Below the pieces are notes generated by a model. The model searched no databases and had not been told where the DNA came from. It saw only the letters and a program-made list of their open reading frames with translations. Below, piece by piece: positions 3,001-24,085 of a stretch of DNA of 45,542 nt (position 1 is the first letter of the stretch; the number at the start of each line of letters is the position of its first letter). The position numbers were made by a program, and so were the translations under genes. Source of the stretch: a virus; the IMG/VR virus record IMGVR_UViG_3300027888_000007, positions 1 through 45,542 of that record. One strand, 5' to 3'.

Positions 3001-3916
3001 GGATCCGGAGAAATATCCTGGTTGCTTAGTTTATAGATATCATGGCGGACCTGGCGATTATCACGCAGGTTTCTGGAGTAATGATTTTGGAGATACATGG
3101 CATTCATATGGTCCTGGTGATATTTGTTTAGATCTAGATTATAATCATACTCAATGGTATGAAACTCGTGAGAGAGAACACATTCCTCCATGTGGTATAA
3201 ATTACAGTTTTCCAGTTGGTATTGAGCATACTGAAAGAATGCCATGCCATAGTTTAGTTGAAGAGTGGTGGACTAGTACTACTTCAACAACTACTACAAC
3301 TTCTACTACTACGACTTCGGTAACTTGGTTTACTACGACAACTACCACAACGTCGACAACTACTACTATTACCACGACAACAACTACTACTACTTCAACT
3401 ACTACTACTTCTATAACTTGGTTTACTACAACAACTGCTCCTCCATCAATCGAAACGATTGATCCTAATGGAGAATATATAGATTATGATTGGTCGGCAG
3501 ATCCTGGTCCTGGTCATTATACAATGGTAAATGATTATGGTTCTCCGACACAAGATAATAGTAGGGTTTATCCAACTTATTATGATGCAGGTGAAGGTTG
3601 GGAATTTGAAAACCCAACTTTGGGTACAACTATTGTTGCTATTAAAGTAAAATTAAGAATTAGAACTGACAATGCTCCAACGACTTTTAAAGTCAGATGT
3701 AGAATATGGGATGGAGCTATACAAATAGGTTCTAATTGGGATATCGAGACTGATAGCACCGGTAATTATGCAGAGTATAGTAACACATGGTCTAGTTTAA
3801 GTTTGACTCCGGCACAACTTTCAGATTTTAGAGTTACACTAACTAATGGTCATGCAGCACCCGGAAATCATTTGGGATCAGTTTCTGCTGCACAAGCTGA
3901 CTTATATTATGTTTAG
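2..3916 (+). CDS. Giant modular fibre-like protein, Asp-box propellers and lectin-like domain (5' partial)
   Basis: The reading frame is open to the left edge, so the true start lies outside the window; at least 1,304 residues are visible. Order of parts: a Thr-rich linker (about 47-110), a first beta-propeller-like domain (about 120-1300) with an Asp box (SDDQGRTW), a Thr linker, a concanavalin/LamG-like domain beginning with a DEFNDTVIDPRW motif (about 1415-1965), a Thr linker, a second propeller-like domain (about 2045-3270) with Asp boxes DLGQTW and SNDFGDTW, a long Thr linker and a C-terminal beta-rich domain (about 3448-3916). Each propeller opens with a similar Cys-containing motif (DGCGC, GDCPC), suggesting domain duplication. 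Asp boxes are typical of sialidase/BNR folds, but I see no sialidase catalytic set, so glycan or surface binding is more likely than cleavage. A receptor-binding or decoration role is inferred from the tail genes that follow. Confidence 0.7.
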   Translation, partial: DDTGTYLIDIRTGVWPTTTTTSTTSTSSTTTTTTYHQSYPYDDGCGCLASTPPGFGNTSAPKPWHFYEPGFDRHWVGNPPHYAYSDDQGRTWTDFHLTGPETATGWAMVDLSPANAYFYISNATDGINFGWMAISKATGAATFMAAGTAAGTRSSSIVQIAAPAGVQFITMGLIPGPAFSLGEHNDIFGAYWYASRGTIAAPYSGQTELIRLDYDRAMSFARTTNGVYSAIAHIVSDPPGGPPVWGIDGLTGVQHITETAGMDFTDPGGWPNRVSASVDPTGNVHVFFSKFTPPEGIYYSRWSFVSGWSTAVRVYDDTPGNVFSFYNQRLAPPGNVVGFVTIVSAPSGCPDDPFNPPYYTNYVGRVSTTGGFTWNEGWFCGQCWGGELVPPSLPYPLTAVDQVSSLNHYGWDTRCPAYAYLDGLTSRFIHFGELTYGITTTTITTTTSTTTTSTITTTTSTTTTTTAPCLGLEQDEFNDTVIDPRWALQDERGGTFSESGGTLHVHSGADGCNAIDPCTPTYIAQCEPAGTEFDVWTKIIVPSFTGQFQEFGLMFRVWDQEDVYAKVGGRIYGGNLYAFALYSNVGTINDEEIPIVASEFWVRIRRKYILGTPHFSYFYSLTEPIVEGDWTLFSTIDLLFYNGSKGWVGHYASYPLPATTTTTTTTTTSTSTTGTVITTTTYFEFIGDCPCGQTEMPPYDSNFGVTHRLYNSNWGHTYWVGYDSSGNENPGIMRDYTDLGQTWLMDGTDAKIIRWSSLDLGITITDTYSFHLSYNKARGEFFVRDTLNNYYLFQIFMIGECYFAGTIIPVTVLPGGSADKSDIWVSPTLNNWLVYKTSTNRIYHAPLDTADPFTYPHGRITNWTLVKDFANGANGDNIIVRSNTQLVAISLNSGITGRKEYSYTNDITTWSANADIIPQTPWYDPSDYPTSWRFVVDTRGYVHGFFAYQGSGTNPIPGSQIYHTRFTSSSWSSPQLIGTVNIGLATIDGSFAQFLHRQVWDPEKYPGCLVYRYHGGPGDYHAGFWSNDFGDTWHSYGPGDICLDLDYNHTQWYETREREHIPPCGINYSFPVGIEHTERMPCHSLVEEWWTSTTSTTTTTSTTTTSVTWFTTTTTTTSTTTTITTTTTTTTSTTTTSITWFTTTTAPPSIETIDPNGEYIDYDWSADPGPGHYTMVNDYGSPTQDNSRVYPTYYDAGEGWEFENPTLGTTIVAIKVKLRIRTDNAPTTFKVRCRIWDGAIQIGSNWDIETDSTGNYAEYSNTWSSLSLTPAQLSDFRVTLTNGHAAPGNHLGSVSAAQADLYYV
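1309..1404 (+). repeat. Poly-threonine linker tract
   Basis: About 30 codons that are nearly all ACN with scattered Ser and Ile, separating the first propeller from the lectin-like domain. All four Thr codons are mixed, so this is not a recent pure microsatellite. Confidence 0.85.
3272..3447 (+). repeat. Poly-threonine linker with repeated S-[VI]-T-W-F cassettes
   Basis: A Thr-rich tract of about 58 codons in which the short motif TSVTWFTTTT is followed by TSITWFTTTTAPP. A close third copy, TSITYFTTTT, lies in the linker near 4758-4790 of the next gene, so the linker itself is a shared, duplicated cassette. Confidence 0.8.
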
Positions 3917-3922
3917 ACAGTT

Positions 3923-3940
3923 GGAACAAACTGATAAAGG
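3923..3940 (+). promoter_or_regulatory. Class A promoter-like motif
   Basis: GGAACAAACTGATAAAGG in the 39-nt gap before the gene at 3956. It matches the class A consensus (RGAACAAA followed by an A/T-rich TAAA box) and points the same way as the gene. Confidence 0.5.
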
Positions 3941-3955
3941 GGAGATAGGATCTAG

Positions 3956-6900
3956 ATGAAGATTTACGAAAAGGTAGTCATAGATATTGAATCTGGTAAA
4001 ATACTGGATGAAGTGTCCTACGACTATGAAGGTCCTATCGCTCAAATGCAGACAACTACCACTACTATGACTTGCCCACCAACCACAGCAGATTGGAGCA
4101 CCTGTTTTAGCGAGTATCCTCTTGGAGCTCAACCATCTGATTGGACGGAGCGCTGGTATCCCGCTAGCGTAGAATATAGAGTAGTTGATGGTTCGGCTGG
4201 TCGTATTGGTGGTCAGTCGATGCGTGAACGCATTTCAGTAGCACCATTTGAGAAATCTATTTCTTGGGATACGCCAGGATTTTTAACTGACGTTGAAGTG
4301 CTTGCTAGGGTTAAGTGTTTAAGTACGACTGGAGATCCAGCTGTTATTGTTAGAGGTTCGGGTGCAGATAGTGGTAAATATGGTTTCTATGCTAAACTTA
4401 ATGATGGATTAAATTTAGAAGTTGGCTATTGGAATAATTCTGCTTTATGGGGGATTCCTTTAGCAGATAAGAGATTCTATCATTACGTTCAGACATGGTA
4501 TTGGATCAGATTTAGAGTATATGATAATACTATATTAAAAGCAAAGGTATGGGAAGATGGAGATCCGGAGCCTTCTGACTGGATGATAGAATTATCGACT
4601 GGATCTGGTCCATCCTTCTCTGGTTGGGTAGGAGTAGGTGGAGTTGGAGCTACTGATAATTTCTATGATGTTTATGAGGTTTGGGATTTAAGTTCACTAA
4701 CGACTACTACAAGTACAACTACTACAACTACAACGAGTACAACTGGAAGCACAACAACTTCAATTACATATTTTACAACCACCACAACTATGCCTCCATT
4801 TCCAACTACCACAACTGCTCCTCCATTTGAGTGGCTCTGTTGTGATAGATGCCTTCAAAGATCAATGCCGGGGTCAGATGGTTCATGGTCAAGTCTAAAT
4901 TTTATAACTTATATTCCTCCAATACAGAGATTCTTTTACTGGTTTTATTATTCACCAGGTTTTAGAGTTCTTAAATATTCAGATGACTTTGGTTTGACAT
5001 GGACTAGTCAAGCGACAAAAGTTTCTTCTGGTCGTTTTTGTGTTGATCCCTATGGTTTGGAATTATACGTAATAGCAGGAACTACACTATGTAAAATCCT
5101 ATCTGGAAACCCTGAACTCTTTTGGCAAACTACACAGACAATACCTGCGGCTCCGGCAGGAACTCAGCATTTAATACTGACAAGACCTAGTGGCGATCCT
5201 CTTATTGGAGGTTTTCTCATTGCTAATGCTGGAGGGGGGAATGTTACTGTTTATCAACTTGCCGATGAAAATATCTCTATAGCATGGCAATTACGTCTTA
5301 ACTGGGCGCATGATCCTCTTGAGACTGTTACTAATAGTGATATTGCATGGTGTCAGACTGGAAGTGGAGGAGCAACCCTCATTATCAAAGAGGGCAATAG
5401 ATTTATGTACGCTGAGTGGGCTGGAAGTTTCTTCCAACCAGTTATACATCCAGCAGAGGTTTCAGATTCAGATTCAACATCAATTCAGAATTGGCAAGTA
5501 GTCGCAGATGACTATGGTCAAACTCACCTTTTCTGGAGAGATGAAGTTGATGGGAATTTACACTATCAAAGATATAGCGGGTCAACTTGGTTAGTAAATA
5601 AAGTTACTATAGGTCCTATAAGTAATAAGTGGGAAGCTCAATATATAAATAGTGAGTTATTTGGAGTCTCTTATGGTATTCTATTTGCTAGGGAAGCAAC
5701 GGTTGGAGGTAAAGGGTACTATATTGATACCGAATTTTCTACTGATTTTATAGAGGGGATTAATTGTTGTGATATAGACTTTAGCTTTATAGATCCACCT
5801 CAACAACTTACTTTAAAACATAGTCATGTTGTTCCGCCGTGTGGGTATATGATTGTACGAGAGAACATATTTAGTACATCCCACGAATTTCAAATATTTG
5901 ATCCTGTTAGTCAGGAGCAGGCACTAACTACAACAAGTACAACTACGACCACAACTACTACTACAACAACTACAACTACAACTACTACAACTACTACAAC
6001 ACCTCCACCTGATTTCGAAGTTGAGTTTGATTTCTTTAGATTTTGGAGTCCTGCGACTACAACCACAATAACAGTTACTACTCCTGCTACTACGACTATT
6101 CCGCCTCTTCCAACAACTACAACTACTATACCACCATATATTCAATTTATTGTTGAGTTTGATGATTTTGAAGGAACTCCGCTAACCACTACAACTACTA
6201 CTACTACAACACTTACTACTACTACAACCACCTTTACTACCACTACGACAGCAACAACAACTACCGTAACAAGTACTGTAACGACAACTACTCCACCTCC
6301 AAGGAACTTAGAGTATAATAAAGATATAATTGGGACGATTGAAGAAGCAGATGCTGAATTTGAAGAATTGGTTAATACACCTCCAGAATCGAGAGATGAT
6401 AGAAAAGCTAAACTTGAGATATTTAGAGAGAATTGGTCTAGACTATTCAATAGCCCACCTTACCAAGTCGATCCAGATGCTGCTGAGACAATTCTAGCTG
6501 CAATAAATCCAGATTTAAAGAATGATATTGATAGCTGGTTTGATGCCGGAGATGATGCAACCCTAATTGAATATCTATTTACAGATTTACACCAGTGGAT
6601 ACTTGAGCATTTTGGTGCATATCCAAATCTTGGTTCAATTGCTGCGGGCATTCCATTCTTAATTAAGCAAGTTATTGATTTCTTTAAACCTTATAGAGCA
6701 AGACTCGCTTTCTTTGAATCAGCAGCAATTTTCGATGATGCTCTGTTAGATTCTATTAGACTTGACGACGCATCTTCGATGATTATTTATCAGACGGTTG
6801 TTGATACCCCAGTTGCTGATAGTATTCCATGTTGTCCATATCCAGAGACGTCTCCTTGTGATTCAACAGCTGCTCTATATTATGCAAGAGAATATTATGA

Positions 6901-8170
6901 CTGTGGTTCATATTATGATAGTGGAATTGTAGATGATTTAGACGACGTACGTCTTACAGTGCGTCAGGATGTACACGATTTCTACTCCTGCCTACCAGAT
7001 GGTTCAGCAGTAATTGACTACAACTTCGATACAACAGCAACAATAACTTTGAGTACTACACTGCCTCCGGAAATTTGTCAGTGGACTGGTCAAGAAGAAC
7101 AGTGGGTTGAAGAAGAAGGACAGTGGATAGATGATGAGAGTCAATGCGTCCCAATTGAGGTACTGTTAACCCAATGGATTAACAATAGTCCGCATTGGCA
7201 GACCCAGTGGGTCGATGAATCTCTCCAATGGGTAGATCAAGAATATACAACTCTGACATTACCTCCTATCCCGGATCCAACACCTCCGGATGAACCTTTC
7301 TATCTATATGGTTATATGGCAGGTGGTTGGCAAGATTTTGATGAAGAAGGTTTATTTGATTGTATGGGTAGTAAGGATATTGTTCAAATTTATATACAAG
7401 ATTCGACCGCGATAATTACCACGACTACAACAGTTACGTCAACAACCTCTACTACAAGTACAGTTACTACTACAACTACTACGACTACTACTACAACCTC
7501 CACAACATCAACAACTACAACTACCTGCTGGGGTCCTATTGGAGACTCATTTGCTGGACCAGACTATAGTCCGCCTAATCCAGCACTTTGGACTGACGTG
7601 ACGTTTGGCGGAACTGGTAATGAAGTTAGAATTCTAAATAATAAACTCAATCTATACATGTCTGGAACTCCTAACCCGGAAGTTGACTCTGTCTTCAATC
7701 TTGGAGTTGGAGACTTTGATGTTCAAGTCGATTATGAGATACTCCAAAGTACAATTTCAGAAGACTGGTATATAATTATGTCGGGTTGGGATCAAGCTGC
7801 TATTGGATTCTGTAATGGTACTTATGTTGGAGTAATGAGAGGTGTCTGGAGTGGAGTGCATGAATATCGCCTTTACTACTGTAGTGGCAGTTCGTTTGGA
7901 TATTTAGGTGCTGTTGCTACTGCTGATATGTCAGGAAAGTTACGTTTAGCAAGAGTAGGTAGTATATGGTCGACTTATTATTGGAGTGGCGGATCTTGGG
8001 TTCTAATTGCTCAGTGGACACAAGTAACACACCCAGTAGGCAATGTGGTTTATCCATTGACGTTCCAACTTAGAAATTTAACTGGTTCTGCTCCGATACT
8101 TGAGATTGCGCTTGATAACTTCTGTTTAGTTAGTTATATAACCACGACAACTACAACTACACCGCCATAG
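3956..8170 (+). CDS. Second giant modular fibre-like protein with Thr linkers
   Basis: 1,404 residues. It starts with a short segment (MKIYEKVVIDIESGKILDE) of a kind I associate with phage structural proteins. After a Thr linker come a lectin-like domain (about residues 45-250), a Thr linker with the SITYF cassette, a propeller-like domain with Asp box SDDFGLTW (about 285-655), poly-Thr, two short related segments (EVEFDFFRF and IVEFDDFEG), more poly-Thr, a mainly helical unique region (about 780-1000), a segment in which QW recurs about eight times (7077-7240), another Thr tract and a lectin-like domain ending in a Thr-Pro linker directly before the stop. Same module types as the upstream protein, so the pair arose by duplication and shuffling. 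Likely a tail or head fibre; the exact virion position cannot be read from sequence. Start ATG follows a GGGGAG ribosome-binding site. Confidence 0.7.
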   Translation: MKIYEKVVIDIESGKILDEVSYDYEGPIAQMQTTTTTMTCPPTTADWSTCFSEYPLGAQPSDWTERWYPASVEYRVVDGSAGRIGGQSMRERISVAPFEKSISWDTPGFLTDVEVLARVKCLSTTGDPAVIVRGSGADSGKYGFYAKLNDGLNLEVGYWNNSALWGIPLADKRFYHYVQTWYWIRFRVYDNTILKAKVWEDGDPEPSDWMIELSTGSGPSFSGWVGVGGVGATDNFYDVYEVWDLSSLTTTTSTTTTTTTSTTGSTTTSITYFTTTTTMPPFPTTTTAPPFEWLCCDRCLQRSMPGSDGSWSSLNFITYIPPIQRFFYWFYYSPGFRVLKYSDDFGLTWTSQATKVSSGRFCVDPYGLELYVIAGTTLCKILSGNPELFWQTTQTIPAAPAGTQHLILTRPSGDPLIGGFLIANAGGGNVTVYQLADENISIAWQLRLNWAHDPLETVTNSDIAWCQTGSGGATLIIKEGNRFMYAEWAGSFFQPVIHPAEVSDSDSTSIQNWQVVADDYGQTHLFWRDEVDGNLHYQRYSGSTWLVNKVTIGPISNKWEAQYINSELFGVSYGILFAREATVGGKGYYIDTEFSTDFIEGINCCDIDFSFIDPPQQLTLKHSHVVPPCGYMIVRENIFSTSHEFQIFDPVSQEQALTTTSTTTTTTTTTTTTTTTTTTTTTPPPDFEVEFDFFRFWSPATTTTITVTTPATTTIPPLPTTTTTIPPYIQFIVEFDDFEGTPLTTTTTTTTTLTTTTTTFTTTTTATTTTVTSTVTTTTPPPRNLEYNKDIIGTIEEADAEFEELVNTPPESRDDRKAKLEIFRENWSRLFNSPPYQVDPDAAETILAAINPDLKNDIDSWFDAGDDATLIEYLFTDLHQWILEHFGAYPNLGSIAAGIPFLIKQVIDFFKPYRARLAFFESAAIFDDALLDSIRLDDASSMIIYQTVVDTPVADSIPCCPYPETSPCDSTAALYYAREYYDCGSYYDSGIVDDLDDVRLTVRQDVHDFYSCLPDGSAVIDYNFDTTATITLSTTLPPEICQWTGQEEQWVEEEGQWIDDESQCVPIEVLLTQWINNSPHWQTQWVDESLQWVDQEYTTLTLPPIPDPTPPDEPFYLYGYMAGGWQDFDEEGLFDCMGSKDIVQIYIQDSTAIITTTTTVTSTTSTTSTVTTTTTTTTTTTSTTSTTTTTCWGPIGDSFAGPDYSPPNPALWTDVTFGGTGNEVRILNNKLNLYMSGTPNPEVDSVFNLGVGDFDVQVDYEILQSTISEDWYIIMSGWDQAAIGFCNGTYVGVMRGVWSGVHEYRLYYCSGSSFGYLGAVATADMSGKLRLARVGSIWSTYYWSGGSWVLIAQWTQVTHPVGNVVYPLTFQLRNLTGSAPILEIALDNFCLVSYITTTTTTTPP
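5927..6010 (+). repeat. Longest uninterrupted poly-threonine tract
   Basis: About 26 consecutive, nearly pure Thr codons ending in PPP. Two more Thr-rich tracts follow at about 6049-6141 and 6184-6297, isolating two short segments that resemble each other. Confidence 0.85.
7417..7526 (+). repeat. Poly-threonine linker before last lectin-like domain
   Basis: About 35 Thr/Ser/Val codons between the QW-rich region and the final lectin-like domain. Confidence 0.8.
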
Positions 8171-13346: not shown

Positions 13347-13712
13347 CTATGGTGTTACTGCTATTTTCCTGATCAGAGTTCTGACTCTAGACTTGTCCTT
13401 TGGATCTAAGGACACAAATTTGATCCCGAACCCGTAGCGGTTAGTCCAGACAACCTTTCCATAAACCAGTATTGGTGAATCATTTGGCAGATCAATACAT
13501 AAATTAGTGAAGACGCCAACTGGCATACTCACATTCCCTGCGGAGATGAATACACCACCAACACTAATGTTTCTGGTTTTTCCGTGTCTGAATTGACCAT
13601 TTAGGTCTGTAAACCTAACGGGTAGTGCTACCTCAACCCTTACTGATCTCCTCTTTGAAACATACAACTTGGCTGTTTGATTCTCTTTTGTTAGTAATTC
13701 TTCCACGGTCAA
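13347..13712 (-). CDS. PilZ domain protein 1
   Basis: 121 residues. Both c-di-GMP-binding motifs of the PilZ family are intact: RxxxR at residues 21-25 (RRSVR) and (D/N)xSxxG at 48-53 (NISVGG), followed by the expected beta-barrel strands (VYGKVVWTNRYGFGIKFV). It is essentially a stand-alone PilZ domain with a 20-residue N-terminal tail and no output domain. PilZ proteins sense the bacterial second messenger c-di-GMP and act by binding partners in motility, biofilm or polysaccharide pathways. It overlaps the second PilZ gene by four bases, so the two are translationally coupled. In a phage it may sense or sequester the host signal; that part is inference. Confidence 0.85.
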   Translation of the reverse strand: MTVEELLTKENQTAKLYVSKRRSVRVEVALPVRFTDLNGQFRHGKTRNISVGGVFISAGNVSMPVGVFTNLCIDLPNDSPILVYGKVVWTNRYGFGIKFVSLDPKDKSRVRTLIRKIAVTP

Positions 13713-14164
13713 CTCCTTCCTGACCCTAGACTTTCGTTTACGAATTTGAAAAGGAGCTTTATGTGATCCTGACTTAAGTTTTCAAATTCGACTGCAAAAC
13801 CAGCCTCCTCTCGTCCGGCAACTTCATTAGAGCGGACAACTCGTGCACCAATCATTCCAATATCCGCTCTGAACGGACTAATTACTCGAACTGTCAGAGC
13901 GATCTTTGTACCAACTGGTGGGGGGTCAGAATCCAAAATATATGCTCCACCCACACTGAGGTCTCTAGTGAGTGCACAGGCATGAGTTGCCTTATGGGTA
14001 TAAACCAGGGGAAGACTAGCTCTAACCCTCACCTTGAGTCGCTTGAGGACTTCAGTCTGACCTGCGTCGACTACTTGACACTCCATTAAACTTGTTGCTA
14101 ACTCCATTTCCTTCGTATCAAGAAACTTCCTTAGCTCCTGTTCTGTGGTAATTTCAATCGCCAT
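13709..14164 (-). CDS. PilZ domain protein 2
   Basis: 151 residues. RxxxR at 42-46 (RLKVR) and DxSxxG at 68-73 (DLSVGG) are both present, so c-di-GMP binding is expected. It has a longer N-terminal helical extension (about 38 residues) than its neighbour. The C-terminal part carries the usual PilZ strand pattern (IGARVVRSNEVAGREEAGFAVEF). First gene of the operon. A GGAGGT site precedes the ATG, and a class B promoter-like motif lies about 45 nt upstream. The two PilZ proteins are only distantly similar, so this is an old duplication or two separate acquisitions. Confidence 0.85.
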   Translation of the reverse strand: MAIEITTEQELRKFLDTKEMELATSLMECQVVDAGQTEVLKRLKVRVRASLPLVYTHKATHACALTRDLSVGGAYILDSDPPPVGTKIALTVRVISPFRADIGMIGARVVRSNEVAGREEAGFAVEFENLSQDHIKLLFKFVNESLGSGRS

Positions 14165-16700: not shown

Positions 16701-16909
16701 TTGCCTTTCTCCTCTTTAAATCTTGGGTCATTGGCTATCTGTCTTCCTGCGATATCCATGAAGTCTGCCATACCACAATATGGACATTGGGGAATTTTTT
16801 CACCCGGATCAACTCCTTGAATATACATATTATCTGGAAGAACAGTGTTATGCTTCGCTGGATCGTACTCCTTTTTACACTTATAACACTCAGTTAGATT
16901 TGACACCAT
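16697..16909 (-). CDS. Small zinc-ribbon protein
   Basis: 70 residues from the ATG at 16909. Two CxxC knuckles (CYKC at about 8-11 and CPYC at about 42-45) form a zinc ribbon, with a short acidic and basic tail. Such ribbons bind nucleic acid or proteins. It overlaps the upstream gene by 20 nt, and its start lies inside the coding end of the YgiT-type protein. Function unknown. Confidence 0.55.
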   Translation of the reverse strand: MVSNLTECYKCKKEYDPAKHNTVLPDNMYIQGVDPGEKIPQCPYCGMADFMDIAGRQIANDPRFKEEKGK

Positions 16910-17177
16910 CAACCTCCATCCTTGTAATTGTTAGTATGATTTTTGGAGCATCCTCTGGTTTTTCGTCTATCACTTCTCGAATCACTTTGAGGATTACCTC
17001 AATCTCGGAACTATACTTCTTATCCAAGAAAGATTCTGGACAGACATCACATTTAAATGATTCGTACCCCTCAAAAACCTGTTCATGACCTTTATAGGTA
17101 AAGTTTATAGGATCAATGGTTAACAATAATCTTCCTTTAAGACACACTGGGCATAACATACCGTGTTTATATTCCAT
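16890..17177 (-). CDS. YgiT/MqsA-type zinc-finger protein
   Basis: 95 residues. CPVC at 9-12 followed by KGRLLLT, then FKCDVCPESFLDKKYS, is the layout of the YgiT-type zinc finger found at the N-terminus of MqsA antitoxins and related small regulators. The C-terminal helix-turn-helix of full MqsA is missing; instead there is a helix (EIEVILKVIREVIDE) and a short hydrophobic strand. No partner toxin of the MqsR type is visible nearby, so a toxin-antitoxin role is not supported. GAGGTAGAT site before the ATG. Confidence 0.55.
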   Translation of the reverse strand: MEYKHGMLCPVCLKGRLLLTIDPINFTYKGHEQVFEGYESFKCDVCPESFLDKKYSSEIEVILKVIREVIDEKPEDAPKIILTITRMEVDGVKSN

Positions 17178-17179
17178 AT

Positions 17180-17512
17180 CTACCTCAATGATTCGTGAAA
17201 ACGAATATGAAATTTAGGACTATCAAATCCACTTCTAAGACAATAGTCAAAAACTTCTCCAGCAGGGTCATAGTTTTCATCTCCAAAGATAAGATTGTGT
17301 CTTCCCTTACTTAGCGGGAATCCATAACTTTTATTCAGAGAATCAATTATTTGCTGTTGTGAGTGTCTAAAATCATAATATATCATCTGGGCAGGCAAAT
17401 CGCCCATCCATAAGTGTTTTACAAATTCATCTGCTGTCAAGATATCAACGTAGACATCAATCATATAAGACGTTGATGAACTATTTGTTACGAAATCTGC
17501 TTTTGCTTTCAT
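17180..17512 (-). CDS. FVTNSSS-signature protein 1
   Basis: 110 residues. Begins MKAKADFVTNSSSTSYMID, the signature shared by five proteins in this operon (MKxKxDFVTNSSS, two variable residues, an aromatic, then a hydrophobic strand). Downstream it contains GEVFDYCLRSG, similar to PEVFDYTLR in the paralogue at 20820-21272, so the relationship goes beyond the N-terminus. This copy is separated from the other four by about 3.3 kb. Its 5' end overlaps the membrane protein gene by 32 nt. No catalytic motif visible. I recall this N-terminal motif from scattered uncharacterised bacterial proteins; its role is unknown. Confidence 0.6.
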   Translation of the reverse strand: MKAKADFVTNSSSTSYMIDVYVDILTADEFVKHLWMGDLPAQMIYYDFRHSQQQIIDSLNKSYGFPLSKGRHNLIFGDENYDPAGEVFDYCLRSGFDSPKFHIRFHESLR

Positions 17513-17879
17513 TTACTTCCATCACTCCTAGATTTATGAGTAGTACTAATGCTTCTCTGAATCTAAGTGTAATCCAAAGAGCGGCCATATTAGCTACAAA
17601 GTCCCCAAACATTGAAGCGAGTACAGATAGAGTTGCAGTCAACATAATTGTGGTAATTGTAAGATTAATATGTGTTGATTCATATGGTCGCCTAAATACA
17701 GTAAGCGCAATTGTAGAATAAAAGATCACAAGTAGTAGATAACCAAATTGGCCCTTAAATACTACAGGATAAAGGAAAAGTACAGCAATACTAATAAGAT
17801 ATATTGGTGTATCTTTCACAAAGGCCGCCGCTATATCTCTACGATCTATTGACTTCAACCAATATTGTCTGAGGTTCAC
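17481..17879 (-). CDS. Integral membrane protein
   Basis: 132 residues using the GTG at 17879, which is correctly spaced from AAGGAGG (an earlier GTG at 17888 lies inside the ribosome-binding site). Three to four hydrophobic segments at about residues 25-45, 48-65, 78-95 and 98-115, and a basic C-terminus. No family recognised. It is the first gene after the structured RNA at 17897-17980, whose U-tract ends only a few bases before this ribosome-binding site. Confidence 0.5.
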   Translation of the reverse strand: MNLRQYWLKSIDRRDIAAAFVKDTPIYLISIAVLFLYPVVFKGQFGYLLLVIFYSTIALTVFRRPYESTHINLTITTIMLTATLSVLASMFGDFVANMAALWITLRFREALVLLINLGVMEVNESKSRFRNK

Positions 17880-17896
17880 TAATATCACCTCCTTAG

Positions 17897-17980
17897 AAAA
17901 AAAAGTGCCCGGGCAGGCGATCAGTTAGGACGAACCTCCGTAGAGGCCTGGGGCCTGACCAATCACACCACACCGGGCAC
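17897..17980 (-). ncRNA. Candidate structured RNA / attenuator-like hairpin
   Basis: On the minus strand: outer 8-bp stem GUGCCCGG/CCGGGCAC, a middle 6-bp stem GGUCAG/CUGAUC, and an apical CCUC-UACG-GAGG hairpin with a UNCG-type tetraloop, followed by eight U. It lies between the OmpA lipoprotein gene and the ribosome-binding site of the next gene. A second small hairpin (ACTACC/GGTAGT, 17988-18004) precedes it. It could be a terminator with an elaborate loop, a processed small RNA or a regulatory leader. It is more structured than a simple terminator requires. Confidence 0.55.
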
Positions 17981-18006
17981 ACCATAACTACCAGATAGGT
18001 AGTCTT

Positions 18007-18720
18007 CTACTTGTATTGAATGATCTCAACACGACGGTTTTTCTGCCTGTTGAATGGACTGTCTTTCCCGCCCACTAGGTTGGGAAATAGTGGGAAGAGT
18101 TCACCCTTGGCCTTGATTGAGTGAATCTGACTGGGGTTTACACCCTGCTTGATAAGATGGTTCTCAGAAGACCTAGCACGCCTTTCAGATAGTCCTTGGT
18201 TGTACTCTTCCGAACCAAAGGAGTCAGTATGACCAATAATAACAACTTTGACGTCCGGGTTAGCTTTTAGGTCCTCAGCTACCCTATCAAGAACCTCGGC
18301 CGCATCTGGTCTGATGTTTGATTTGTCGAAGTCGAATAGTGCGTTATCCCATTTGAGGACAACAGGTTTGACTTCTTCAACAACAGGAGCCGCCTGACAA
18401 TCACAGGCCTCTTGTGCTTTTGCAAGTGCCTGCTTAATCAGATCCCAGGCTTCTGCACTATCACATCTTACCCATGCATCATAAGCGGCGGCCTTCAACC
18501 TCTGTGCCTCGTTGTAGATATCGGGGCAATTCTTCATTCCGTTCTTCTCACATTCTTTTAGTTTTGCCTCGACCTCCATTAAGGCATCAGAAAAACCTTG
18601 GTTCTCCATTTCGGTCGAATAGACCTGAAGTGGTTGTTCCGGGGCCTTTGCCTTTTTAGCACATGCTACTGGAAGTACCAGAAAGAGTGCTAGTGAGATT
18701 AACAATAATTTCCTCGCCAT
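18007..18720 (-). CDS. OmpA/Pal-family peptidoglycan-binding lipoprotein
   Basis: 237 residues. Signal peptide with lipobox PVAC (Cys about 20), a helical Lys/Ala/Glu-rich middle with several Cys (about 30-110), then a C-terminal OmpA-like domain (about 125-235) with the core IGHTDSFGSEEYNQGLSERR. The conserved Asp and Arg that bind diaminopimelate in OmpA/Pal are present, so the peptidoglycan-binding site looks intact. It would tether outer membrane to cell wall, as host Pal does. Likely captured from a Gram-negative host. In a phage it could stabilise the envelope, modify adsorption or take part in lysis; the sequence does not decide. AGGAGG before the ATG. Confidence 0.85.
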   Translation of the reverse strand: MARKLLLISLALFLVLPVACAKKAKAPEQPLQVYSTEMENQGFSDALMEVEAKLKECEKNGMKNCPDIYNEAQRLKAAAYDAWVRCDSAEAWDLIKQALAKAQEACDCQAAPVVEEVKPVVLKWDNALFDFDKSNIRPDAAEVLDRVAEDLKANPDVKVVIIGHTDSFGSEEYNQGLSERRARSSENHLIKQGVNPSQIHSIKAKGELFPLFPNLVGGKDSPFNRQKNRRVEIIQYK

Positions 18721-18739
18721 GTCTTAATTCCTCCTTTCA

Positions 18740-19867
18740 CTATTTGCTTTCTCCGAATAAAAACCTGAATTTGATTTCACCTGATACATTAAGATTCAGA
18801 TCAAATCTTCTGTCCACAGAATTAAGAATGTCAGCAATAGCTTTAGTTATTCCTTCAGCTACATCTTCGACTCCCTTCTTAACTTCTGCTTCTAATTCTT
18901 TTAGTTTCCGTTCCGTATCGTCAACCACTTCCTCAGGTTTCGGTTCTACCTTTGGAACTTCAACTTTTGGTTTATCGAATTTTGGGCCACGAGTGTAGAA
19001 TTCTTCAGCAAAATCAGATGGAGAACTGAAAAGCTCTTTTCCAAACTCAACTTTACGTCTCAGTCTCCTTGCTCCTCCCACCCCGATATTTTCAATAACT
19101 AATAGATCTCTCATTCGATTATCAATTCTTGAGAGTAGGGAAGATGCTGAACGCTTAGATATTCCAAGAGTGCCTGCTACATCTTCAGTCACGGCCCACG
19201 CCTCATCTCCTTCTAACTTACTTTTTGCGTAGAGATACATTAAAGCACCACGCATCAAATCTTTTGATCTGGGTTGTTTCGTTACTTTTGTTGGTTTTGG
19301 TTTCATCCGTGGTTTGACTGGCCTTACTTTCTTTTTCTTCCTCTCATCTCGACGATAATACTCTTCAACAAATTCTTTTGCGTTGTCAAATGGAATATCG
19401 TCTTTCACACGCCGTAAGATCTTCTTTTCATCAAACTTTCTCTCAAGAAGATCCCCCATCTTTCTGTCGATGGCAGTCATTACTGACGATGACGTAGTTT
19501 TTGGAACTTCTAAGTGAATAGATAACTCCTCCGTACCTATCCATTTTTCGGTTCCATAAGTTTGATCAAAAAGGAAAGCTAAGGCCACCATGGTCCTATC
19601 CGATCTCCTTTTTTTCACCATTTTTAACATCCTCTCAAATTCAATTTGTTTAATTTCATCTTTTGAAAATTGTCTAACTGGTCCGTGTTTTCCCCTCCTT
19701 TCTGAATTTCTAATTTTTACAAATTTTCTTTTACACTTAGACATCTTAATTAGATCTTCAAGAATTGACTCTCTAGTTTCCGGACACTCAATTCCAAGGT
19801 TTGTGGGATCTAATGGGATGCCTTCAAGAGTAATGCCTCTGAGATTTGGAACTGTAGTAGTTGTCAT
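18740..19867 (-). CDS. Protein with duplicated helix-turn-helix-like domain
   Basis: 375 residues with two related blocks: about 88-170 (MVALAFLFDQTYGTEKWIGT, EVPKTTSSSVMTAIDRKMGD, ending EFVEEYYRR) and about 206-295 (GALMYLYAKSKLEGDEAW, GISKRSASSLLSRIDNRMRD, ending DFAEEFYTR). Each has the order helix, winged-helix-like turn, recognition-type helix, basic wing. A Lys/Pro-rich hinge (about 172-200) joins them, and a Pro/Glu linker leads to a C-terminal helix and beta segment. DNA binding, perhaps as a transcription or replication accessory factor, is likely but inferred. RBS GAGGAGAG. Co-transcribed with the OmpA gene 20 nt downstream. Confidence 0.55.
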   Translation of the reverse strand: MTTTTVPNLRGITLEGIPLDPTNLGIECPETRESILEDLIKMSKCKRKFVKIRNSERRGKHGPVRQFSKDEIKQIEFERMLKMVKKRRSDRTMVALAFLFDQTYGTEKWIGTEELSIHLEVPKTTSSSVMTAIDRKMGDLLERKFDEKKILRRVKDDIPFDNAKEFVEEYYRRDERKKKKVRPVKPRMKPKPTKVTKQPRSKDLMRGALMYLYAKSKLEGDEAWAVTEDVAGTLGISKRSASSLLSRIDNRMRDLLVIENIGVGGARRLRRKVEFGKELFSSPSDFAEEFYTRGPKFDKPKVEVPKVEPKPEEVVDDTERKLKELEAEVKKGVEDVAEGITKAIADILNSVDRRFDLNLNVSGEIKFRFLFGESK

Positions 19868-20095
19868 TTCCCACTCTCCTCTGATATTTGGGAAGAAATA
19901 GGGGGTTACAATCCTTTTTCGTCAGGGCATGGACCCCCGGCCATATCTATCCCTTAGCCAAATAAAAGACCATTCCGAAAGGGTTTTCCGGCACGTCAGA
20001 ATCTAGTCTTATACCACAGGATTGCAGGTGGCCAGAGGAGTTTCGTGCCAACCACCATATCTGCTAGTGAGGTGGCGACTGGGGGGATAAACTAT
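19868..20095 (-). ncRNA. 228-nt gap with multiple potential RNA helices (low confidence)
   Basis: No convincing gene in either strand. On the minus strand there is a 9-bp helix starting GGUGGUUGG paired with the GGCCACC side, a possible long-range GGCACG/CGUGCC pairing, and a hairpin combining AGGG/CCCU and AUGG/CCAU. GC content is higher than in neighbouring genes. There is no U-tract, so it is not a simple terminator. It could be the leader of the downstream gene at 19867 or a processed RNA. Confidence 0.3.
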
Positions 20096-20878
20096 TTAAT
20101 CAAGGAAGGTTACACCTGCACTCCAACGTCCCTCGAACTCACGGTTCATTACAACCAGGTGCCATCCTTGTAACTTAAGGGTCTTGTGATCTGGATGACT
20201 GATTGTCCCTCTTGCATAAACACTTTCAACTCGGGACATTTCTCGCATAATTTCATTACCTTCTTTATCATAACGACCAGTACCAACAAGTGTTGTCCGT
20301 GAACCAGTCCTTATGACTTCAGAAGCTATATGCGGTCTACCTGCCATACGACCACGAACCATTCTAACTAGAGGTTCATTAGTATGAATGTGATTTCCTT
20401 CTTCCTCAAAATCTGGTTGAGGGATAAAATACCACTCTCCCTGCCTTAAAACCTTTTCTCCCCTCCTTTCTGCTTCTATGACAGGGTCTCTTTTTAGACT
20501 ATCAATAGCTTGCTCGACTGTAGTTACACGAGCATCACTTGGAAGATTTGCAATGAAATATTCTCTCTCGTCATGACCACATAGGAGACGATCAATAATA
20601 CCCGGTTCATTTTCAACTCCCAATAGAATATGACGAGTCTCAGGTCGATAAGAAAGAACCTTTATACGCTCATGGTTATCAATGAAAAGGATGAATTTCT
20701 CACCCTTACGAGTACGGAGAATATCAAATGCAAAATCTGGATCTGGCTCTCTAGTAAAACTTCTTATCCTCCTATTCCAAACGCTCTCAGCCTCTTGCCT
20801 ATCATTACGAACATCAATCTCAAGATTGCACCGACTGAAGTGCTTTTTCAGAACTTTCTTCCAATGGTCGTACTGCAT
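20096..20878 (-). CDS. Hypothetical protein
   Basis: 260 residues from the ATG at 20878, which has a GAAGGG site; the upstream GTG at 20905 would deepen the overlap with the preceding gene. Arg- and Glu-rich, apparently cytoplasmic. Recognisable stretches are DFAFDILRTRKGEKFILFID, GEWYFIPQPDF in the middle and a C-terminal ARGTISHPDHKTLKLQGWH segment. I have the impression that the last segment recurs in uncharacterised phage and plasmid proteins, but I cannot attach a family name or activity. It overlaps the FVTNSSS gene by 59 nt. Confidence 0.5.
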   Translation of the reverse strand: MQYDHWKKVLKKHFSRCNLEIDVRNDRQEAESVWNRRIRSFTREPDPDFAFDILRTRKGEKFILFIDNHERIKVLSYRPETRHILLGVENEPGIIDRLLCGHDEREYFIANLPSDARVTTVEQAIDSLKRDPVIEAERRGEKVLRQGEWYFIPQPDFEEEGNHIHTNEPLVRMVRGRMAGRPHIASEVIRTGSRTTLVGTGRYDKEGNEIMREMSRVESVYARGTISHPDHKTLKLQGWHLVVMNREFEGRWSAGVTFLD

Positions 20879-21272
20879 CTGAAATCCTTCCCTTCTGTTT
20901 GTCACTAAATTTAGCTAATTTTTCTTTGATCTTATCAATGTGTGCACCAACATTTAAGATAATATATGGCGCACCAGCAGGAGTATCAATCCTTTCAACA
21001 ATTACTCCTAACTCGTTAAGAACCCTTAGAGTATAATCAAAAACCTCTGGGCAGTCGTAAAAGTCCTCCGAACTTACACTCCCATCCATTAAAAGCATAT
21101 CAAAACTCGTGATAACATCATCTATGTGAACTCGTGAATTATCGAGAATATTAGCGTGTTCACGTATACTAAGAAAATTCCTAACATCAAAACAGTTAGG
21201 TAAAACAACTATGTAATTGATAGAGGAACTATTTGTTACAAAATCTGATTTGATCTTCAACTTTTCCCCCAT
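20820..21272 (-). CDS. FVTNSSS-signature protein 2
   Basis: 150 residues. Starts MGEKLKIKSDFVTNSSSINY followed by the strand IVVLP. The second half (CPEVFDYTLRVLNELGVIVE, then APYIILNVGAHIDKIKEKL) is similar to the paralogue at 22280-22702 (NLIVNIGLADIFNRIKEI). The ATG overlaps the stop of the preceding family member (TAATG), so the two are coupled. Highly charged C-terminus. No catalytic motif found. Confidence 0.6.
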   Translation of the reverse strand: MGEKLKIKSDFVTNSSSINYIVVLPNCFDVRNFLSIREHANILDNSRVHIDDVITSFDMLLMDGSVSSEDFYDCPEVFDYTLRVLNELGVIVERIDTPAGAPYIILNVGAHIDKIKEKLAKFSDKQKGRISDAVRPLEESSEKALQSVQS

Positions 21273-21640
21273 TATTGGTTGGATATTACTTCAAATTTGA
21301 TACTCTTAACCTTCTGTAAGAAGAAATGTGTCATATCCGGTCTTACATTAATATGTTCCATAATTATATGACCCATGTAATACGGAACATTACTATAATC
21401 GTTGAACATTGAAGTTCCATCCTCCAACCTAAAATTTTTGGAATTAAGCATTGTAATTGTTGGTTGAAAGAATCTGAGATTTTTAAAATCATCTCGATAA
21501 CTATATACATTCTGCATCTTATTCATATAATCACCGAAAAGATTAAAGAAATCATCAAGAGTAAAATCCTCTGTCATCTCTAGAAATAAATAGAAACTCG
21601 CAGAGCTGCTATTGGTTACGAAATCACTTTTTATCTTCAT
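21272..21640 (-). CDS. FVTNSSS-signature protein 3
   Basis: 122 residues. MKIKSDFVTNSSSASF followed by YLFLEM. The rest is rich in Phe, Tyr, Asp and Asn (DDFFNLFGDYMNKMQ, SYRDDFKNLRFF). ATG start with a GAGG site placed inside the end of the upstream zinc-ribbon gene. At DNA level the signature uses different serine codons from its paralogues (AGC AGC TCT here, AGT TCC TCT in protein 2), so the peptide, not the DNA, is conserved. Confidence 0.6.
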   Translation of the reverse strand: MKIKSDFVTNSSSASFYLFLEMTEDFTLDDFFNLFGDYMNKMQNVYSYRDDFKNLRFFQPTITMLNSKNFRLEDGTSMFNDYSNVPYYMGHIIMEHINVRPDMTHFFLQKVKSIKFEVISNQ

Positions 21641-21932
21641 GAAACCTCATCCATTCTTGACCATTATCAGAGATAATTCTCGTAAATAAACGACTACAAC
21701 GTTTACATTTAAAGGTTGTCACATTCCTCATAAATCTTGCTGGCCTTGGTTTCCCTCCACAATCTGGACATATTTGTTTCTCCATTATTAGATAAGTAAG
21801 TTTATCATGGTTTACTTCAAGTTTACCACATATGCTTGAGCAATTAGGAAAAACTATACACTCAACACAAGGGAAACCGTCTGGAAGTAATAATTCAATT
21901 GGAAGATCGGCCTTAAAGGTGAGGGAACTCAT
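21624..21932 (-). CDS. Small zinc-ribbon protein between FVTNSSS genes
   Basis: 102 residues from the ATG at 21932, which follows GAGGAG at a proper distance; the longer frame to 22010 runs through the neighbouring gene. It has CVEC and CSSIC in the N-terminal half and a clear ribbon CPDCGGK ... FKCKRC in the C-terminal half, so two Cys clusters that could each bind metal. It overlaps both neighbours. No FVTNSSS signature. Function unknown, but its embedding suggests it works with the signature proteins. Confidence 0.55.
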   Translation of the reverse strand: MSSLTFKADLPIELLLPDGFPCVECIVFPNCSSICGKLEVNHDKLTYLIMEKQICPDCGGKPRPARFMRNVTTFKCKRCSRLFTRIISDNGQEWMRFHEDKK

Positions 21933-22314
21933 GACCACACTCCTCATAGTAACTATTCTCTCCATAACTTGCAGGAAATATATCATGGTCCATGTCTGAG
22001 AGAGATTCATCTCTTAATACCCACACAATCCATCTACTATTTGATTCTTTAGCGTAGTGGAGTACGTGTGAATATAATAATGACTGGTATTCATTTGCGA
22101 GTACATGATCTTTAGTATGGACAGCAGCATCTATATATTTATGTATTGTTTCTCTAATATGATCTGCACTATCCCACTCCCTACCATACGACTGTAAATA
22201 AGCTATCGCCTCTTCTTTTGTAAATTTGGTTTCTGGATCTTTCTCGTATTTTTTCCAGTTGATTACAAAAGCAGTTGAGCTACTGTTTGTCACGAAGTCT
22301 TGTTTTATCTTCAA
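21913..22314 (-). CDS. FVTNSSS-signature protein 4
   Basis: 133 residues with a TTG start preceded by GGAGGATTAA. It begins (M)KIKQDFVTNSSSTAFVINW. The rest is helical and charged (TKEEAIAYLQSYGREWDSAD, then HIRETIHKYIDAAVHTKD), with a Tyr/Ser-rich end. Its body is not obviously related to the other members, so the signature seems able to sit on different domains. Confidence 0.6.
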   Translation of the reverse strand: MKIKQDFVTNSSSTAFVINWKKYEKDPETKFTKEEAIAYLQSYGREWDSADHIRETIHKYIDAAVHTKDHVLANEYQSLLYSHVLHYAKESNSRWIVWVLRDESLSDMDHDIFPASYGENSYYEECGHEFPHL

Positions 22315-22702
22315 TTAATCCTCCAATCTCCTTTATTCTATTAAAGATATCAGCTAATCCAATATTCACTATGAGGTTATTACCTTCATAAGGTAAATCG
22401 TAATCTGCTATTATAAAGTTGAGATCTCTGCAGATATCTATTACAATCCACATATATAATCGACTGCTATCAAACAAAAGGTTTTCAATTATGTTTCCCT
22501 CTTCAAGGAGTTTGTCGAAAAAATTCTCTATCATATTGACTTGCATTCCATCATCACTGAATTCCATATAGCTCTCGAAACGATTAAAGATTCCTCCCTT
22601 TTCTAACATTGATAGATGATCTTGTAATTTAAATTCTGATGGAATCATAACGACATAACAAGTAGAAGAACTGTTAGTTACAAAGTCAGATTTAACCTTC
22701 AC
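22280..22702 (-). CDS. FVTNSSS-signature protein 5
   Basis: 140 residues with a GTG start overlapping the stop of the GNAT-like gene (GTGA) and a GGAG site. It begins (M)KVKSDFVTNSSSTCYVVMI. The body (EFKLQDHLSMLEKGG, NLIVNIGLADIFNRIKEI) matches the layout of protein 2, including the C-terminal helix, so these two are full-length paralogues. Function unknown. Confidence 0.6.
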   Translation of the reverse strand: MKVKSDFVTNSSSTCYVVMIPSEFKLQDHLSMLEKGGIFNRFESYMEFSDDGMQVNMIENFFDKLLEEGNIIENLLFDSSRLYMWIVIDICRDLNFIIADYDLPYEGNNLIVNIGLADIFNRIKEIGGLIEDKTRLRDKQ

Positions 22703-23073
22703 TCTTTCTCCTTTGGAAATCTAATAACTACAGATTCAGTTACTTCGATAAACCCGTATTTTCCAAACCACACTTTCAACTCTTCTAAATTCATTCTTCC
22801 ATACGGATTTATTGGGTTGATAATTGCGATACCCTTCTCATCACAAAGTTCAACCAAACGCTTCATTAAGACTGTACCATGACCCTTCCCTTCTTCCATC
22901 GACTTTATTCTATGAAAGAAGAACAAAGGATGTGAACATTCTATATTATAACCTGATAGAAATTCTTTGTGTTTTTGCATTCCAAATGCTGATAACTCGC
23001 AAATTGCTCCTCTGTTAGTCATTAGGCAGATAACTTCATCAGTGATGGTTTCATGCATTATCCTTGGCTCCAT
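22699..23073 (-). CDS. GNAT-like acetyltransferase
   Basis: 124 residues from the ATG at 23073, preceded by AAGGAG; an earlier start would overlap the radical SAM gene. The stretch EEGKGHGTVLMKRLVELCDEKG has the (R/Q)xxGx(G/A)xxL acetyl-CoA pyrophosphate-loop pattern of GNAT enzymes, followed by a typical strand and helix ending in WFGKYGFIEV. The first half is short for a GNAT, so the substrate side may be reduced. It sits between the radical SAM gene and the FVTNSSS cluster, which suggests that it modifies proteins or small molecules of that system; that link is inference. Confidence 0.6.
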   Translation of the reverse strand: MEPRIMHETITDEVICLMTNRGAICELSAFGMQKHKEFLSGYNIECSHPLFFFHRIKSMEEGKGHGTVLMKRLVELCDEKGIAIINPINPYGRMNLEELKVWFGKYGFIEVTESVVIRFPKEKE

Positions 23074-23083
23074 TGCCAACTCC

Positions 23084-24085
23084 TTAGAATCCAAATGGAC
23101 ACTTTTCTCTATTTTGTTTTAGTGTCAACCTAGTTGATACAAAACCACGACTATTATTCCATGCCCTTTTGATAGACATTTTACGCAGGGAAATACCGCG
23201 TCTGCTGTGATCTGCAAATGAACATGGAACTAACATCATATCCGGACTTATATAGCATGACATACGAGCAGCCTCGCATGTATCAAGGAACATCTCCTCA
23301 CTCTTGGTCAGACTTGTAATTTGCACAAGTCTATTAACGAGACATGAATCCATGCCTATTTTGAATTTTGTTTTACCTGCCAACCTTAGATCAACAAACT
23401 CTTTCAACTCACCGTTTGTTAGACTCCAATTCTTCAAATCTTTTCCTCTGCCCTGCGGTTTGAACAATAGGAAAATGACAGCATTTAATTGATCTAGATC
23501 AATCTTTCCGCTCCAAACATCTTCACCTTTGAGAATATTTACTGCTTTTTCCAAGGATTTTTTAGACAATAGAAAATGTAGATTTGTCTTTATATCAGAA
23601 TCCATGAGTTTTTGTAAAGCTCCAAATGTGAAGTCTTGACCATAGTCCGATACTGCAACGGCCCCACACATCTTTGATATCTCGATGTGTTTGCTTGTCA
23701 GACCTAGACCTGATGTTGTGTAATTGGGGACTACGATATTTTCCCGAGCATAACCAACAATCTCTCCAAAGTTTTCGTGTAAATTTGGATCCCCCCTTCC
23801 TCCTAAGGCCACTTGATTTGTGAAGGTTTTAGATTCATTTATTATCCTCTTAAAATCTTCTAACTTCATATTTGGTTGTTTTTGACTACCTTGATAACAA
23901 AACTTACACTCATTAGGACAATGGCCCATAATCCCAATATCAATTAAATTTGGGTAGTCAAGCATGAATGGATCAGGAAAACCATGTTTTCCAAAAATGA
24001 TCTCTTTGCCATTTGCCACATTAAAAATAATCACATAGCGATCCGTCTCAACGATCTTTTTCATTCCGACCATTCGTGCGACCAT
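23084..24085 (-). CDS. Radical SAM enzyme with extra C-terminal Cys cluster
   Basis: 333 residues. CPNECKFCYQG carries the CxxxCxxC motif (Cys 56, 60, 63) that binds the [4Fe-4S] cluster for S-adenosylmethionine cleavage, and a GGRGDPNLHENF segment follows in the position of the GGEP-type motif. The C-terminal part has further Cys (DTCEAARMSC, VPCSF, the final CPFGF), like the SPASM/twitch extensions that hold auxiliary clusters in peptide-modifying enzymes. Substrate unknown; neighbours are a GNAT and five proteins with a constant N-terminal signature, so peptide or protein modification is a testable idea. AGGAGG before the ATG. Confidence 0.8.
   Translation of the reverse strand: MVARMVGMKKIVETDRYVIIFNVANGKEIIFGKHGFPDPFMLDYPNLIDIGIMGHCPNECKFCYQGSQKQPNMKLEDFKRIINESKTFTNQVALGGRGDPNLHENFGEIVGYARENIVVPNYTTSGLGLTSKHIEISKMCGAVAVSDYGQDFTFGALQKLMDSDIKTNLHFLLSKKSLEKAVNILKGEDVWSGKIDLDQLNAVIFLLFKPQGRGKDLKNWSLTNGELKEFVDLRLAGKTKFKIGMDSCLVNRLVQITSLTKSEEMFLDTCEAARMSCYISPDMMLVPCSFADHSRRGISLRKMSIKRAWNNSRGFVSTRLTLKQNREKCPFGF

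Follow-up and report, generated by a model that had tools for sequence, protein, structure and literature searches.

An N-terminal tag on unrelated phage and cellular proteins and its partner radical SAM enzyme point to a protein-tagging and modification system

Introduction

Most known radical S-adenosylmethionine (SAM) maturases are devoted to a single peptide or a single family of proteins. Anaerobic sulfatase-maturating enzymes (anSME) are radical SAM/SPASM enzymes that oxidize a cysteine or serine of a folded protein within the target motif Cys/Ser-x-Pro-x-Arg. A different arrangement is described for VMAP ternary conflict systems, in which FxSxx peptides occur with radical SAM/SPASM enzymes and the FxSxx motif lies in a C-terminal peptide (PMC7159879). 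Here we analyze a virus record of 45,542 bases with tailed-phage genes (IMG/VR record IMGVR_UViG_3300027888_000007; the whole stretch is called the window), in which five minus-strand open reading frames (ORFs) beginning MKxKxDFVTNSSS lie downstream of a radical SAM gene. The tag has a fixed position, is independent of the protein body that carries it, and is linked to one enzyme family in both directions of genomic search. We propose that M-K-[IV]-[KR]-x-D-F-V-T-N-S-S-S-[ST]-[SA]-[FY] acts as an N-terminal tag of flexible structure, and that a radical SAM enzyme dedicated to it, in most cases the product of a neighbouring gene, recognizes the tag and probably modifies it. The likeliest chemistry would be an oxidation or a cross-link within the invariant D-F-V-T-N-S-S-S stretch, and we regard this reading as having a good probability of being correct. 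Together, the tag and its partner enzyme point to an undescribed protein-tagging and modification system.

Results

The window's terminase has matches in 2574 phage records, every one at <60% identity, and its radical SAM gene is found at 100% identity in two larger records of 277,131 and 223,954 bases. This gene, which was absent from an earlier note on the same DNA, is part of a minus-strand run and precedes the first tagged gene by ~380 bp; downstream of it the five tagged ORFs are interleaved with untagged genes, the fifth lying ~3.3 kb past the fourth (Table 1). A pattern search located exactly five tag sites in the window's record, and none when the pattern was read backwards. All five ORFs with a shared FVTNSSS signature that the earlier note had listed exist, and their N-termini, with TTG and GTG starts read as methionine, are MKAKADFVTNSSSTSY (17512), MKIKSDFVTNSSSINY (21260), MKIKSDFVTNSSSASF (21640), MKIKQDFVTNSSSTAF (22314) and MKVKSDFVTNSSSTCY (22702). 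Four of the listed starts stand; the protein placed at ATG 21272 probably begins at TTG 21260, since the tag then falls at the position found in 472 of 474 occurrences (see below) and its six closest body relatives have the same leucine/TTG-type codon there.

Across codons 6 to 13 of the five ORFs the residues are identical throughout, although 3–6 of the 8 codons differ in each pair, and the serine codons within the signature mix the TCN and AGY families, as had been noticed. Chance does not account for eight consecutive residues that agree in five operon ORFs whose codons differ, and the peptide itself is conserved rather than being a fresh DNA copy; the proteins at 21272 and 22702 are indeed paralogues (30% identical). 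A DNA- or RNA-level element that conserves the sequence, such as a recombination site or a translation signal, would fit with a location that is always at a start codon, but in view of the codon differences beneath unchanged residues we give this explanation almost no credence.

Retrieval by degenerate pattern gave at least 118 stretches in viral contigs and at least 118 in bacterial and archaeal genome contigs, so that tag counts are lower bounds; the window's own loci (L119–L123) are excluded from the counts of tag ORFs, bodies, neighbours and tag position. At least 451 tag ORFs, each assigned the start nearest the expected place, were reduced to 422 once incomplete and short ones had been removed. 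The cellular tag loci among the matches listed (n = 100) comprise 71 from Bacillota, 12 from Bacteroidota and 17 from other groups including archaea, and some of them may be prophages. Aspartate precedes the aromatic residue in 443 of the 451 listed ORFs. In a stricter check of position, the start codon lay exactly six codons before the aromatic in 472 of 474 distinct open-frame occurrences of [FY][VI][TS]NSS[ST] among the matches listed, and in 161 of the 163 occurrences for which this spacing was not forced by the retrieval pattern; an earlier nearest-start rule had given other spacings in 11 of 289. A logo of the 422 proteins listed shows D6, F7, N10 and S11–S13 to be nearly invariant, which is partly forced by the retrieval pattern. 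Tag strings including DFVTNSSS are absent from open-licence PubMed Central (PMC) papers, and FVTNSSS appears there only in work on hemp-seed peptides.

The earlier note had taken the signature for a tag, conserved across different domains, that serves in recognition, processing or modification, a reading that would be contradicted by bodies kept without the signature or by an ordinary domain common to all members. Both were looked for, and the comparisons support the reading. Without their first 20 residues, the 422 tagged proteins listed fall into 83 BLAST clusters (41 singletons); three body families trimmed in the same way show no profile similarity (hhalign probability ≤0.2%), and lengths among the matches listed range from about 60 to >660 residues. 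A body-only search (alignment A9) returned 60 relatives, four of which end before the N-terminus, and the tag is kept in 56 of the 56 others; a second body family was found at 6 loci, with the tag in 6 of 6, so that in these two body families of the 83 no body occurs without the signature. Of the 60 loci of the A9 relatives, 55 have the enzyme no more than 2.5 kb away, on the same strand in 55 of 55.

Structure models were made for a phage tagged family (mean predicted local distance difference test score, pLDDT, 92.8) and for the 22702 protein of the window (mc5f2a14b45a0; mean pLDDT 78.6). In both of these unrelated bodies, which are otherwise predicted to fold, residues 1–10 are of low confidence, and a strand from residue ~13 is modelled as the body's first strand, with helices and two more strands after it. 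In the models the signature is therefore structural at its C-terminal edge. Neither model had a match at E 0.001 or better in a fold search of the Protein Data Bank (PDB), nor did the phage-family model have one in BFVD; profile searches against solved structures gave none for alignment A4 and only two chance-level matches for A5. The common opening might suggest that tag and first strand belong to one very divergent fold shared by all members. With no profile similarity among bodies of such different lengths, a hydrophobic segment straight after the tag in one tagged family, and low confidence for residues 1–10, we consider such a fold very improbable. On the sequence comparisons and models, the peptide is a tag and not part of one shared domain. 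Separately, the A5 family (L006:8571-9095 and relatives) has, besides the tag, three C-terminal residues that may form a metal site or an active site: E159 and H175, which are invariant, and H160, which is nearly so.

Clustering of 1432 neighbours within 4 kb of tag loci revealed one dominant family, radical SAM, with 147 proteins in 145 loci. The enzyme is thus within 4 kb in 145 of the 208 tag loci listed (60/108 viral, 85/100 cellular), a count that includes near-duplicate virus records; its strand is that of the closest tag gene in 147 of 147 cases, with a median gap of 6 bp. When whole records were searched for tag loci with no enzyme nearby, it was found elsewhere in 25 of 44, and in 13 of the 14 records of ≥100 kb. 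Starting from the enzyme instead, a tag is present within 4 kb in 54 of 80 viral loci, compared with 0 of 80 on reversed sequence, and tag ORFs near viral enzymes share the enzyme's strand in 124 of 124 cases.

Cellular panels were composed of genomes drawn evenly from a class or order by a draw that ignored the tag, with an enzyme threshold of E ≤1e-40. The enzyme was found in 6 of 293, 9 of 350 and 12 of 392 genomes, with a tagged protein within 2 kb in 6/6, 9/9 and 10/12 cases, respectively. Counted as distinct enzyme-bearing genomes (one is in two panels), 24 of 26 have an adjacent tagged protein; both misses are enzyme fragments in which the match ends ≤4 bases from the contig end. Three of the 26 (G048, G050 and G056) had been retrieved through the tag, and two of these three served as panel centres; without the three the result is 21 of 23; at least four further panel genomes were apparently also hit by that retrieval. 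The strict tag pattern occurs in 3 genomes of the 293-genome panel, with the enzyme in 3 of 3, and deviating tags, for example MKIRKGFVTNSSSTNF and MKYRTGFVTNSSSSSN, are found near panel enzymes. In a 296-genome panel from the class of G049, the enzyme was found only in the panel centre. The partnership between tag and enzyme is well supported by these counts.

It could be argued that the tag directs targeting or assembly, for example virion packaging or docking to one partner, and that the radical SAM gene is merely a frequent neighbour. Phage T4 internal proteins share N-terminal targeting sequences, and many phage copies of the tag lie near tail genes, with a sheath gene in 34 tag loci. However, some cellular cassettes (for example L162, L200 and L402) carry the tag although no structural phage genes are visible there, and searches from either side link the tag to one enzyme family, which makes this account improbable.

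Residue 4 of the tag (K or R) follows the locus. Leaving out identical proteins and same-body pairs >60% identical, it is shared by 350 of 354 pairs of different bodies at the same locus, by 2366 of 3473 pairs of the same body at different loci, and by 38,102 of 73,829 unrelated pairs, and it is uniform in 80 of the 83 loci with two or more tags.

The window enzyme carries the CX3CX2C motif of the radical SAM superfamily as C56-x3-C60-x2-C63 and matches phrog_7293, a family of unknown function that is matched by 91 of 91 enzymes, at 2.2e-31; it reached no NCBIfam cut-off. Alignment A1 of these 91 sequences has 26 invariant columns. The full SPASM cysteine set is present in 62 of the 91, while 29, including the window's, keep only the four C-terminal cysteines. 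We accordingly file the window enzyme, which scored 15.3 of the required 21.5 bits against Pfam SPASM, as SPASM-related and truncated, since it does not keep the full set; C248, C270, C288 and C329 would be enough for one predicted auxiliary cluster. The truncated enzymes form one clade of 29 on the tree, with types assigned from alignment columns. The SAM-cluster spacing is CX3CX2C in 50 of 91 enzymes, CX7CX6C in 33 and other in 8; the CX7CX6C motif is unusual (see A1 rows L034:1989-3086 and L133:2727-3794). The best solved-structure matches of the A1 profile include 5v1q, SkfB, BtrN, PqqE and anSME; by name, we take SuiB, SkfB and CteB-like structures to be among the nearest, and PDB entries 4k36–4k39, also matched, are presumably anSME. 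For the tagged proteins, Pfam, NCBIfam and PHROGs gave no named match at cut-off. All five in the window weakly match phrog_7397, another family of unknown function (E-values between 0.0025 and 0.18, with the tag making up most of the matched region), and as far as the searches made here go, the link between phrog_7293 and phrog_7397 is new.

Radical SAM enzymes that are guided by a leader are known, and a basic, flexible N-terminus would be well suited to act as a docking sequence only, like the leader of a ribosomally synthesized and post-translationally modified peptide (RiPP), with the enzyme modifying the attached body. The bodies have no detectable common residue pattern, whereas the near-invariance, partly forced by retrieval, is in the tag at D6, F7, N10 and S11–S13. 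We judge docking alone to be unlikely and favor modification of the tag itself.

At 18 cellular loci, tag and enzyme lie beside a large NTPase of STAND-like type and a member of a family of small genes (82–172 amino acids as called), with an enzyme ORF in 18 of 18. The four-gene cassette consists of an Avs2-like STAND protein with an exchangeable N-terminus (SMEK or nucleosidase-like), the small protein, the tagged protein and the radical SAM enzyme (L162:1266-5796; L402:2568-7020; L200:1-3889), and the same order is found on the Agrobacterium, Rhizobium and Rhodobacter plasmids examined, which are three of the seven matches, with tags such as MKLKMDFVSNSSSTSF. The cassette NTPase matches Avs2 profiles of PADLOC (9e-32) and NCBIfam (2.8e-22 for L200). 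It was rejected as Avs2 proper, three proteins scoring 52.6, 73.3 and 78.5 bits against an equivalog cut-off of 1000. The resemblance to Avs2 suggests that the cassette may be a defence system. An ABC-transporter ATPase is present near ten tag loci.

Among 50,697 cultured-phage records, the tagged protein of phage RB16, RB16p111 (MKIRSGFVSNSSSSSFIV...), has relatives in 175 and the RB16 enzyme, RB16p156, in 174. Compared by genus, counts for tag and enzyme are 115/112 in Klebsiella, 20/20 in Enterobacter, 14/14 in Cronobacter, 11/11 in Citrobacter and 9/9 in Escherichia phages; the enzyme search adds a Vibrio record and one more genus, neither of them in the tag search, and the distant Vibrio record was not matched when the search was made stricter. 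Both genes are present in phages of the RB16 lineage, ~20 kb apart in RB16 itself, and because the records are mostly of one lineage, RB16-type records count as one case. By blastn, the RB16 enzyme gene has no matches among E. coli genome records. Two genes after the tagged gene of RB16 comes a large gene with a VWFA-like annotation (L124:6001-9081).

Table 1. Positions of the enzyme gene, the tagged genes and their untagged neighbours in the window
Feature	Position	Strand	Remarks
Radical SAM protein, proposed maturase	23084..24085	-	C56, C60, C63 SAM cluster; C248, C270, C288, C329 one predicted auxiliary cluster
Untagged gene between enzyme and first tagged gene	22699..23094	-	phrog_14082 1.3e-4 (unknown function); acetyltransferase-like by eye only; no Pfam match at 0.01
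Tagged protein 1	22280..22702	-	GTG start, 140 amino acids; tag 22643-22702; structure model made
Tagged protein 2	21913..22314	-	TTG start, 133 amino acids; tag 22255-22314
Zinc-ribbon-like protein without a tag (between tagged genes 2 and 3)	21624..22010	-	Weak matches, all below cut-off
Tagged protein 3	21272..21640	-	ATG start, 122 amino acids; tag 21581-21640
Tagged protein 4	20820..21260	-	Probable TTG start 21260 (ATG 21272 = +4 residues); paralogue of protein 1; tag 21201-21260
Tagged protein 5	17180..17512	-	ATG start, 110 amino acids; tag 17453-17512; phrog_7397 0.0025 over residues 1-82
MqsA/YgiT-type zinc-finger protein, directly after tagged gene 5	16890..17177	-	TIGR03831 25.2 bits (cut-off 20.2)

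The zinc-ribbon-like and MqsA/YgiT-type proteins are possible members of the system. Within the tagged-gene region, 18007-18720 (-) encodes an OmpA-family protein (1.2e-20) with a lipoprotein-like start. Elsewhere in the window, two adjacent genes at 13350-14164 (-) have PilZ domains (2.4e-16 and 2.9e-10), and two very long ORFs with repeated threonine-rich linkers at 323-8170 (+) perhaps encode fibre or surface proteins.

Discussion

That the enzyme modifies the tag is our best inference, and retention of the tag and the chemistry are inferred likewise. In the mechanism we propose, the enzyme would bind the basic, flexible N-terminus and abstract a hydrogen within D-F-V-T-N-S-S-S, and in this phage one enzyme would serve five tagged proteins. 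Candidate chemistries are oxidation of a serine, as by anSME, and a cross-link from phenylalanine to a neighbour, both of them known reactions; either would give a change of -2 Da. Since no recurring protease was recognized when neighbour clusters were viewed by eye, the tag is probably kept. A more tentative extension, which we think possible but doubtful, is that a general tagging chemistry is common to phages and to bacterial and archaeal cassettes, including the Avs-like ones: acting on many unrelated proteins, the enzyme would convert their serine-rich N-termini to a single new chemical group, to be recognized or covalently bound by partners, so that one modification would serve the phage on its side of an infection and the host on the other.

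Several observations weigh against modification of the tag by a dedicated enzyme. The window enzyme scores 28.9 bits against Pfam Radical_SAM, just below the cut-off of 29.5. Record G017 (121,660 bases) has tags, and the enzyme was not found in the whole record; likewise, 4 of 15 cellular genomes with no enzyme near the tag have none anywhere, the other 11 having it elsewhere. Of the 26 viral enzyme loci with no nearby tag, a single whole record has convincing tags elsewhere (three, with start codons); it is the only one >100 kb, and the other 25, all ≤42 kb, have no convincing tag. The mean similarity over the five variable tag positions is 0.70 within a locus, 0.72 for the same body at other loci and 0.54 for neither. 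For residue 4, GC content (guanine plus cytosine) predicts the identity with an accuracy of 0.75 over 126 loci and so explains part of it; the corresponding accuracies are 0.83 for SPASM type and 0.87 for both together, with SPASM type set by a regular expression that misjudged some SPASM variants. Co-evolution of residue 4 with SPASM truncation represents one evolutionary event and was dropped as support.

The significance of these results lies in one enzyme family that is tied to a single N-terminal tag, although the bodies behind this tag are of dozens of unrelated kinds and are found both in phages and across several phyla of cellular organisms. They provide a testable function for two phage families of unknown function, phrog_7293 and phrog_7397, and RB16 and RB43, cultured E. 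coli phages that carry both genes, offer a laboratory system for such tests. As a candidate for defence, the STAND cassette of cellular genomes would include a step of modification that has so far been unexplored. Searches of open-licence PMC listings for radical SAM together with phage, SPASM, Avs or RiPP returned nothing on a tag–enzyme system, and PMC3468402 deals with an unrelated QueE.

Comparison with described systems brings out what is distinctive here. As in anSME, a radical SAM enzyme with an auxiliary cluster is proposed to act on a short, serine-rich motif of a larger, retained protein; unlike anSME targets, the tag logo of 422 proteins does not contain C/S-x-P-x-R, the putative target is the extreme N-terminus of unrelated proteins, and the window enzyme keeps cysteines for one auxiliary cluster only. 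The RiPP radical SAM/SPASM maturases, SkfB, PqqE and their relatives, are represented among the nearest solved structures, and there too the enzyme adjoins the substrate gene. The substrates here, however, would be whole proteins with the tag in place, which the models predict to be folded, and no recurring protease or exporter was recognized by eye in the neighbour clusters. The large protein of the cellular cassette resembles Avs2 STAND NTPases in matching their profiles, but it is accompanied by a tagged protein and by a radical SAM gene, and the cassette is found outside the window. FxSxx systems (PMC7159879) likewise combine a short conserved motif with a radical SAM/SPASM enzyme and are tied to conflict systems dependent on nucleoside triphosphates (NTP); in contrast, the motif described here is N-terminal, is carried by many different bodies, and is present in phages as well.

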